Of a stretch of DNA of 14,167 nt, positions 10,022-11,521 are shown one piece after another; the first letter of the stretch is position 1, and each line of letters opens with the position of its first letter. The DNA comes from a bacterium (lineage in GTDB: Bacteria > UBP6 > JAFGXH01). The stretch spans positions 1-14,167 of the forward strand of contig JAMOQH010000066.1 in assembly GCA_027064085.1 (NCBI GenBank). Direction: 5' to 3'. The notes beneath the pieces were generated by a model. It saw nothing but the letters and a program-made list of their open reading frames with translations. It was not told where the DNA came from and did not search any database. Position numbers and translations under genes: made by a program.

Positions 10022-10402
10022 GGGCAGCATTTTTTAAGATTTGAAGTTCCTACTACCTGGCAAATATGGGAAAAAGCTGGGATGAGTTGGGATAGTACAC
10101 TCAGTTATGCCGACAAAGAAGGTTTCAGATGCGGGACTTGCTATGAGTATTCGGTATTTGATATATTAAATAGAGAAAAGCTAAAGCTGAAAGAAAGACC
10201 TTTGATTATAATGGAAGGAACGCTTGTGAATTACCAAAACTTTACGCCAGAAGAAATGGAAGAGAGAATAAAAAATTTAGCGGATAAAGTAAAACAATAC
10301 AATGGGCAATTTGTGTTTTTGTGGCACAATAGCAGTTTTGGTGGAAGTTGGAAGAAGTTTGAGTATATTTATGAAAAGGTTATTTGTGGTAATTTGTTGT
10401 AA
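10022..10402 (+). pseudogene. 3' remnant of a second polysaccharide-deacetylase family gene
   Basis: An open frame readable from about 9995 becomes recognisable at 10022. It gives GQHFLRFEVPTTWQIWEKAG, then the downstream residues STLSYADKEGFRCGTCYEY, RPLIIMEGTL and FLWHNSSF. This is the C-terminal third of the polysaccharide-deacetylase family proteins seen in O-antigen clusters, which carry (R/G)QHxLR, DSTLxxADxxGFRCGTC and a final LWHNSxF motif and normally span 300-450 residues. The N-terminal catalytic half is absent: a stop lies in frame at 9992-9994 and no homologous sequence precedes it. An ATG at 10082 could start a 106-residue fragment, but no good SD is evident. It differs from the deacetylase-like protein at 5047. 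Its last codons run into the decamer array, so the end may also be altered. Confidence 0.78.
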
Positions 10403-10440
10403 TTTGTTGTAATTCATCGTAAATTGTAGTTATTTATTGT
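10381..10440 (+). repeat. Degenerate 10-bp tandem repeat, six units
   Basis: Six consecutive decamers follow a consensus of AATTTGTTGT. Units 2 and 3 are identical, and the others differ at 2-4 positions. The array begins within the last codons of the deacetylase remnant (stop 10400-10402) and leads directly to a hexamer array. The period is one helical turn. I see no recognised regulator site in it. Confidence 0.75.
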
Positions 10441-10450
10441 GATTATGAAA

Positions 10451-10486
10451 GTGAGTGTGAATGTGAATGTGAAGGTGAGAGCGAAT
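10451..10486 (+). repeat. 6-bp tandem repeat, six units (consensus GTGAAT)
   Basis: The hexamers are GTGAGT, GTGAAT, GTGAAT, GTGAAG, GTGAGA and GCGAAT, in register without gaps. The array is non-coding and lies between the decamer array and the left end of the S23 unit. The 10403-10561 stretch holds nothing else that I can support except the inverted end and the SD of the S23 gene. Confidence 0.75.
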
Positions 10487-10508
10487 GGGGAAGAAAAATG
10501 TTTATAAT

Positions 10509-10545
10509 GGTTGAATAGTATAGTGGTATAATAGTTTAGTAGTGG
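10509..10545 (+). repeat. Left inverted end of S23 unit, copy B
   Basis: This 37-bp stretch starts GGTTGAATAGTATAGTGG and ends TAGTAGTGG. Its reverse complement matches the right end of copy A (272-312) at 32 of 37 positions with one 4-base gap, and the shorter right end of copy B (10962-10990) less well. Confidence 0.6.
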
Positions 10546-10561
10546 AGTAATGGAGTGAGGA

Positions 10562-11008
10562 ATGGAGGAAAGCAAACCAAATTTTACATTTGAAGATTTG
10601 GATATATGGAAAGAAGCAAGGGATACGAGAAATCAAATATCTAAACTTGTAAAAATTTTTCCAAAAGAAGAGAAATATAGGCTTTCAGATCAATTGATTA
10701 GAGCTTCAAGATCAGTTACTGCAAATTTAGCTGAAGGATACGGTAGATTCCATTATAAAGAAAATATTCAATTTTGCAGACAAGCAAGAGGTTCTCTTTT
10801 TGAATTGATAGATCATCTAACTGTGGCTTTAGATGAGAAATATATGAATACAGATGAATTCAATTCTTTGAAAGCGGAATGTTATAATTTAATCAAAAAG
10901 CTCAATAGTTTAAAAAGTTTAAAATATCTAAAATTCAAACGGAGAAAACAAAATGACTACACCACTACCCACTATACTACTATACCAACCACCAATAAGG
11001 AGAGCTAA
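10562..11008 (+). CDS. Four-helix-bundle protein, S23/23S-rRNA IVS family, copy B (complete)
   Basis: This protein has 148 residues. It begins MEESKPNFTFEDLDIWKEAR, with the family-typical FxDLxIWxxA start, then LSDQLIRASRSVTANLAEGYGR (41-62), FCRQARGSLFELIDHLTVALD (71-91) and a Lys-rich fourth helix ending near residue 127. The four-helix core is followed by a roughly 20-residue Thr/Tyr/His tail that comes from the inverted-repeat end. The SD GGAG (10552-10555) is six bases before ATG 10562. The stop at 11006-11008 falls between the SD and the first ATG (11011) of the broken epimerase, so translation could be coupled. The protein is basic at its C-terminus and related in fold to Avd accessory proteins, but no retroelement is present. 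Its function is unknown. Confidence 0.9.
   Translation: MEESKPNFTFEDLDIWKEARDTRNQISKLVKIFPKEEKYRLSDQLIRASRSVTANLAEGYGRFHYKENIQFCRQARGSLFELIDHLTVALDEKYMNTDEFNSLKAECYNLIKKLNSLKSLKYLKFKRRKQNDYTTTHYTTIPTTNKES
10962..10990 (+). repeat. Right inverted end of S23 unit, copy B (shortened)
   Basis: This 29-bp stretch runs CCACTACCC to CAACC. Relative to copy A it lacks 12 bases of TAC/ACT triplets just before the terminal CAACC, which fits slippage within the triplet run. It lies inside the 3' end of the S23 gene and encodes the Thr/Tyr-rich tail. Confidence 0.6.
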
Positions 11009-11093
11009 TAATGAAGATATTAACCATTCTCGGTGCTCGTCCGCTAAGGAGAGCTAATAATGAAGATATTAACCATTCTCGGTGCTCGTCTGC
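10996..11093 (+). repeat. 49-bp tandem duplication over an epimerase start
   Basis: Bases 10996-11044 and 11045-11093 are the same 49-bp sequence with one difference (C at 11042, T at 11091). Each unit contains a full AAGGAG SD and an ATG (11011 and 11060), followed by codons for MKILTILGAR. Since 49 is not a multiple of 3, translation from the first ATG leaves the epimerase frame after ten residues and stops at 11119-11121, giving a 36-residue product. The single change converts the Pro codon of the GARPQ motif to Leu in the copy that remains in frame. Confidence 0.92.
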
Positions 11094-11521
11094 AATTTAT
11101 AAAGGCTGGGGCAGTAAGTAGAGAGATAGAAAGGCGAAGGGCTAAAGGCGAAAGGCTAAGGGAAATTATTGTTCATACAGGCCAACATTATGATTTTAAT
11201 ATGAGTGATATATTTTTTGAAGAGCTGCATTTGCCAAAGCCTGATTATTTTCTTGGTGTAAATGGGCTAAATCATGGCGCAATGACTGGGCAGATGATGG
11301 AAAAAATTGAAAAAGTGGCTTTAAAAGAGAAACCAGATGTTATAATGGTTTATGGTGATACAAACTCAACGCTTGCAGGTGCAATTGTAGGAAGCAAACT
11401 TCATATTCCAATTGCTCATATAGAAGCAGGGCTTAGAAGTTTTAATATAAAAATGCCGGAAGAAGTAAATAGAATATTGACTGATAGAGTAGTTCAACTG
11501 ATACAGCTGCGGATAGCTTAA
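11060..11521 (+). pseudogene. Truncated UDP-sugar 2-epimerase (WecB/WbpI-like)
   Basis: The 153-residue product matches the N-terminal half of non-hydrolysing UDP-sugar 2-epimerases: MKILTILGAR, HTGQHYDFNMSDIFFEEL (39-56), VYGDTNSTLAGA (97-108), HIEAGLRSFN (120-129), MPEEVNRILTDRV (132-144). The wording (TGQHYDxxMSDxFFxEL, DTNSTLAGA, RSFNxxMPEE) fits the WbpI-like subgroup and differs from the intact wecB at 556. The complete family length is about 370. Here the frame diverges after TDRV and stops, so the domain with the catalytic His and SGG motif is missing. Another frame at 11494-11547 reads STDTAADSL, faintly like the family's PTxTAxxNL segment, which suggests a small deletion. The 49-bp duplication, the Pro-to-Leu change at residue 11 and a heptamer array add to the damage. 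It is almost certainly inactive. Confidence 0.85.
11132..11159 (+). repeat. Four heptamer tandem repeats inside the epimerase remnant
   Basis: Four 7-bp units read AGGCGAA, GGGCTAA, AGGCGAA and AGGCTAA, also readable as two 14-bp units with one difference. They encode the residues around RRAKGERL (26-33), which fall between REIE and the conserved IIVHTGQHYD, where relatives have only a few residues. The insertion is in frame. Confidence 0.75.

Follow-up and report, generated by a model that had tools for sequence, protein, structure and literature searches.

The 14,167-nt stretch of DNA analysed here (hereafter, the window) is an entire contig (G000:C66) of an AT-rich 3.65-Mb draft genome and, from ORF calls and profile searches, contains a polysaccharide gene cluster with an S23 unit inside it, i.e., the unit lies among protein-coding genes rather than in a 23S rRNA gene. 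On the forward strand, the unit opens with a C-free left arm (10509-10561), a period-8 patch made of a degenerate 8-nt tandem repeat (TAGTATAG TGGTATAA TAGTTTAG TAGTGGAG and so on), continues with a gene for a 148-aa S23/four-helix-bundle (23S rRNA IVP) protein (10562-11008), and closes with a G-free right arm of the reverse-complement repeat type (10956-10990) that ends in CAACC and is translated within the 3' end of the S23 ORF. The protein matches PF05635 across the full domain (E 6.7e-34, 116.7 bits against a cut-off of 33.8) as well as TIGR02436, and its best PDB match by phmmer is Xanthomonas XCC0516 (2GSC, E 5.9e-13). An earlier note on this DNA had described 10509-10990 as a discrete, transposase-free unit in which the S23 gene lies between ends able to pair in RNA, and the analysis bore this out, with S23 as the sole ORF of the unit, no transposase inside it, and a left arm that aligns with the right arm better than shuffled sequence does (score 17, 5/2000 shuffles) and is predicted to form a duplex of -32.7 kcal/mol with it.

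A sister S23 copy, its 5' end lost at the contig end, occupies positions 1-333 of the same strand and is 97% identical over 295 nt to 10691-10985, with six synonymous and four non-synonymous codon differences. Its right arm (266-312, again ending in CAACC) is 12 nt longer, as repeat arrays are expected to vary in this way, and the match that the note had seen between the left end of one copy and the reverse complement of the right end of the other was recovered: 10509-10556 aligns with few mismatches and small gaps (score 25, 0/2000 shuffles), with a computed duplex of -45.1 kcal/mol. The reported loss of similarity right after CAACC (308-312 and 10986-10990) was likewise confirmed, and the genes downstream differ; the left border of the unit is supported by one copy only, the left end of the sister lying beyond the contig. 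In the whole-flank test described below, the own-arm match of the window unit is modest (z 2.4), and the unit is an ordinary member of the S23 cassette class whose own-arm pairing is somewhat weak.

Just 5' of the unit lies a gene-less, degenerate period-6 patch of GTGAAT type (10446-10500, forward strand), preceded by another gene-less patch of GTAATTTGTT type (10380-10445, forward strand) that resembles the arms of a third S23 unit of the same genome, on contig C161 (alignment 32 versus a null of 19.3 ± 1.8). Directly 3' of the unit, a 49-nt stretch that includes the RBS and the start of a wecB-like gene has been duplicated in tandem at 98% identity (10996-11093), so that the wecB-like start codon is present twice, and the N-terminal part of a truncated UDP-GlcNAc 2-epimerase follows (11060-11521), bearing an in-frame heptamer patch (AAAGGCGAAGGGCTAAAGGCGAAAGGCTAAGGG) with the apparent extra residues RRRAKGERL. 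An intact wecB also holds a period-7 patch (1143-1188, AATTCAAAATTCAACATTCAGAATTCAAAATTGA), with the in-frame reading FNSKFNIQNSKLI. Downstream of the sister copy, 326-559 encodes a short N-terminal fragment of a polysaccharide flippase-like protein, and a flippase homologue on contig C161 is likewise found 3' of an S23 unit, a different one with other arms. Elsewhere in the genome, three related octamer arrays (CTTATCCTATTATAATATGATAATAGGATGATATGATGA and so on) with a common start occur at L152:3880-4254 (G000:C189) with no S23 nearby. Position 1 of the window, the contig start, falls inside the repeated S23 unit. Short-read assemblies typically break at repeats such as this one, and further S23 copies may be hidden in the assembly gaps of the genome.

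Beyond the window, we drew on whole genomes and GTDB contigs for a set of 107 distinct S23 loci, of which 106 were usable, spanning Bacteroidota, Omnitrophota, Nitrospira, Cyanobacteria and others, and compared the 300 nt upstream of each gene with the reverse complement of the 300 nt downstream, counting z>3 as a match and using 316 random placements of the same geometry within the same loci as the control. Matching arms were found at 78% of the 106 loci versus 2.5% of the placements (Mann-Whitney p about 1e-38), an independent repeat on 30 Flavobacteriaceae loci picked by Pfam score gave 60% versus 0%, and 12/14 S23 genes of cyanobacterial plasmids carried such arms at z>4, with about 20-40% of S23 loci being without a clear arm match. 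Own-arm scores exceeded those of arms swapped between loci in most cases. A low-complexity artefact, which the earlier note had raised as a possible explanation of the symmetry, was ruled out by the random placements, the shuffles and the swapped-locus controls. Inside orthologous sites, matched arms differed significantly from swapped arms in 2/5 groups (p 0.04 and 0.03), though not by energy; selection for arm pairing inside a site is weakly shown.

Structurally, the S23 gene spans about 360-450 nt and the whole cassette about 450-530 bp. Lag analysis gives an arm period of 7 nt (also 8 and 14), the lag-7 peak across arms identifying these as heptamer arrays overall, with the window unit itself at period 8. 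The arms are also strand-asymmetric, with 8% C upstream, 8% G downstream and more G than C upstream of S23 in 65/69, and their computed duplexes at operon loci mostly fall between -45 and -70 kcal/mol. As in an rRNA intervening sequence (IVS), the S23 ORF is thus enclosed by complementary ends, but a conserved terminal inverted repeat of the transposon or MITE kind was not found, the arm sequence being unique to each unrelated locus. The C161 unit, which is 32% identical to the window gene, has wholly different arms (AGTTATTTATAGTTATT and so on). The three S23 stretches of the window genome, the 97%-identical pair included, agree with the several copies per genome that the note had anticipated, whereas its identical GGTTG/CAACC borders did not recur at other S23 loci, C161 among them. 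Differing borders are the outcome that the note had named as refuting, and for this motif it applies. A stronger feature takes the motif's place, namely degenerate heptamer arms whose match is confined to their own locus; GGTTG/CAACC is therefore one instance of locus-specific complementary arms. A conserved GGTTG/CAACC terminus was ruled out as such, since borders differ at every unrelated S23 locus. Judging from the sequences, what is conserved is a design: the upstream arm recurs downstream as its reverse complement, in a sequence specific to the locus. Variants also occur: two pyrH|frr cassettes (L040, L041) have three arms, a G-type, a C-type before S23 and a C-type after it, with each C-type arm stopping just short of a start codon, and one genome (G035; loci L020, L029, L035) holds 11 S23-like matches, several of them as divergent pairs about 220 nt apart.

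With respect to location, S23 is co-directional with both neighbours at 80 of the 96 loci where both were identified and antisense to both at 3 (80:3, binomial p about 1e-20). The sites lie between housekeeping genes, including sdhA|sdhB, sufC|sufD, sufB|sufC, pyrH|frr and a position after lpd, all named from recognisable protein sequence without a family search, and also at cas6|cas4, where cassettes (L320, L321) occupy CRISPR operons of cyanobacterial plasmids; a figure legend in PMC10910872 has 23S rRNA IVP among the domains shown. Xanthomonas records were absent among the S23 matches on plasmids, and no 23S motifs were seen in the S23 loci checked alongside our repeat-patch scan. A published table for Flavobacterium columnare places guanylate kinase, a four-helix-bundle gene and nadD in a row, the same intercistronic pattern as in the cassettes here, and files this arrangement under phage elements (PMC5524665). 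We considered a phage origin and rejected it, since searches of phage records and of viral contigs gave no relative.

Several junctions exist in more than one state, as the earlier note had predicted with its empty sites in relatives, which we found at S23 junctions elsewhere. At sdhA|sdhB, the interval in Aequorivita UBA3180 is 530 nt with S23 and in NORP10, whose sdhA is 94% identical, 3 nt; three further congeners carry S23 with other heptamers, another (L118) has a 71-nt hairpin consisting of arms only, and S23 also sits at this junction in Zunongwangia and Arenibacter. The UBA3180 S23 protein is 70% identical to the Zunongwangia copy versus 50-56% to those of its congeners. At sufB|sufC in 30 Algoriphagus relatives, 2 junctions are filled (with differing arms), 26 are ordinary spacers of 17-189 nt and 2 hold S23-less heptamer arrays, the last two lying in <2 kb of spacer where about 0.1 or fewer would be expected at measured patch rates. 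On Nostoc plasmids, one junction carries an insert in pNsp_a and pC052_D that is missing in pNsp_c, and the next is filled in pNsp_c by another S23 with other arms and is empty in pC052_D, the sequence left of the pNsp_c insertion being identical to the empty pC052_D at 249/250 positions. TTCTA at one Nostoc junction and ATG at another may be target repeats, other pairs being too diverged to judge; termini and target duplications differ between insertions, and some insertions bring additional non-repeat sequence with them, such as about 36 nt past the right arm in L316. Taken as a whole, the S23 cassette looks like a mobile element.

The arms also bear on the dispersed heptamer repeats of bacteria. 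Away from S23, we counted 26 degenerate, gene-less 7/8-mer patches in the S23-positive Flavobacteriaceae/Flavobacteriia samples (577 kb) and 1 in the S23-negative ones (369 kb), a density about 17 times higher in the former (binomial p 3e-5, with imperfect independence as the positive sample comprised S23 flanks plus one genome), and a first, cross-phylum sample pointed in the same direction. Patches were closer to the S23 arms of their own genome than to those of other genomes (KS p 0.0085), and in the roughly 1.3 Mb sampled, wherever patches formed inverted pairs without S23, the gap between them was short and held no other cargo gene. Heptamer arrays, partly as inverted pairs, have been reported in Beggiatoaceae (TAACTGA), Cyanobacteria (GGGGA(C/T)T in Nostoc), Bacteroidetes including Aequorivita, and Xanthomonas (GGGAATC), in papers that do not mention S23 (PMC4679880, PMC4692102). 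These short tandemly repeated repetitive sequences resemble S23 arms in being degenerate 7-nt tandem arrays, mostly intergenic, sometimes in inverted pairs and patchy across phyla, and differ in that the arrays here form S23 cassette arms and are rare in the absence of S23. It is plausible, and testable, that S23 cassettes drive bacterial heptamer repeats.

Among known systems, the cassettes are most like 23S rRNA IVSs with an S23p ORF, in which the S23 gene also lies within the loop of a complementary-end stem. The IVS of Coxiella burnetii has its S23 ORF, directly preceded by GACAGAT heptamers in varying number, in the loop of a 28-bp stem and is cut out by RNase III, excision without religation having been shown for this and other IVSs (PMC4990558). 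It shares with the cassettes a similar size (428-444 nt; PMC4990558), variable heptamers beside the ORF, the lack of a transposase and a host RNA that tolerates the cut, whereas the cassettes differ in occupying intergenic sites of protein operons instead of 23S rRNA, in having long degenerate heptamer arrays unique to each locus as arms, and in reaching many copies per genome. As an analogy for the S23 cassette, the earlier picture of an IVS relocated to an operon works well, and the nearest description, and our best reading, is a mobile, intercistronic relative of 23S rRNA IVSs. Avd of diversity-generating retroelements (DGRs) is reported to have a four-helix-bundle fold homologous to that of S23 (PMC10053308), but no reverse transcriptase (RVT_1) was found in the window genome (about 95% complete), and none is needed by the distribution in Flavobacteriaceae. 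MITEs and REP elements likewise lie scattered between genes as small repeats that have inverted ends and encode no transposase; the cassette differs from them in carrying a conserved gene of its own and in having ends without a conserved sequence.

Mechanistically, we posit that a cassette inserts between operon genes in the sense direction and would therefore be co-transcribed with its host genes. The arms would then pair in the transcript, forming a stem with S23 in the loop, and a double-strand RNase (RNase III, following the Coxiella IVS) would excise the hairpin and part the flanking cistrons. At an intercistronic site this should do no harm, much as an IVS is tolerated in 23S rRNA. Since repetitive arms could pair in shifted register, their length and unit may change while pairing is kept. 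The S23 protein, a pentamer related to Avd, probably binds the hairpin RNA; spread would fit an RNA or single-strand intermediate on which host enzymes act, and where the S23 gene was lost, repeat hairpins or single arrays would remain. At the level of sequence, the architecture, its recurrence across phyla, the locus-specific complementarity, the sense orientation, the filled, empty and gene-less junctions and the near-identical copies in one genome are established, and by analogy with IVSs the cassette is probably processed as an RNA hairpin. We consider the reading as a whole, a mobile sense-oriented intercistronic S23 cassette between complementary heptamer arms, cut from the transcript as an RNA hairpin and encoding an RNA-binding S23 protein, to be fairly likely.

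Other explanations can be set against the same observations. Slippage or recombination might make heptamer arrays between genes first, with S23 as a passenger that persists only where arrays flank it; patches far from S23 exist, and the published repeats in Beggiatoaceae, Cyanobacteria, Bacteroidetes and Xanthomonas make no mention of S23. However, the roughly 17-fold scarcity of patches in S23-negative Flavobacteriaceae, the inversion and orientation of the arms relative to S23, and the restriction of S23-less inverted patch pairs to short gaps without another cargo gene make this order of events unlikely. The cassette could instead be a MITE-like, non-autonomous DNA transposon that carries S23 as cargo and is mobilised in trans by a Y1/REP-type or other transposase whose target is a hairpin and not a sequence. 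Single-strand transposases that recognise hairpins exist, the window genome has three Y1_Tnp genes, and short target repeats flank two Nostoc insertions; yet four genomes with 8-13 S23 copies (G062, G107, G133, G152) have no Y1_Tnp match, end sequences are not conserved, and so strong a sense bias is unexpected for a DNA transposon without selection, which leaves this option quite improbable.

Copying of the hairpin RNA by a resident reverse transcriptase, with S23 acting like Avd, would suit the resemblance of PF05635 to this DGR accessory protein (PMC10053308) and the sense orientation, which fits an RNA intermediate. We nonetheless judge it very improbable, given that neither the window genome nor many genomes with 7-16 S23 copies have an RVT_1 match, past or transient enzymes being conceivable. 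The distribution gives no support to the idea that the element depends on a reverse transcriptase or Y1 transposase resident in the genome. Least convincing, and in our view extremely improbable, is an inherited, non-mobile operon gene, with arms that are nothing more than attenuator or RNA-stability hairpins: the conservation of several sites within a genus (e.g., sufC|sufD in Aequorivita) speaks for it, but one and the same junction occurs in filled, empty and arms-only versions, S23 proteins at the same junction are less alike within a genus than one of them is to the copy of another genus, two distant S23 units precede homologous flippase genes in the window genome, and nearly identical copies precede different genes.

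Returning to the mobile S23 cassette between complementary arms, the architecture is real and general and apparently previously undescribed; we found no account of stand-alone S23 genes flanked by heptamer arms in the literature searched, with preprints and most subscription papers lying outside it. Somewhat doubtfully, we also raise the possibility that S23 cassettes are the autonomous members of an element that moves without its own transposase, recombinase or reverse transcriptase, relying on the S23 pentamer together with an RNA/DNA hairpin specific to each locus. Its gene-less relics or non-autonomous forms would then be the dispersed heptamer repeats seen in Bacteroidota, in Cyanobacteria and probably in Xanthomonas and Beggiatoaceae, and the 23S rRNA IVS would be a special case of insertion into an rRNA gene. 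No role has been agreed for stand-alone S23 genes, common as they are, nor any origin for the dispersed heptamer repeats of several bacterial groups; the cassette architecture unites the two. It gives S23 a concrete context, namely a predicted RNA hairpin around its own gene, carries the IVS idea from rRNA to mRNA operons, and makes mobility, RNA processing and repeat-making testable in culturable strains, Nostoc or Aequorivita for example.
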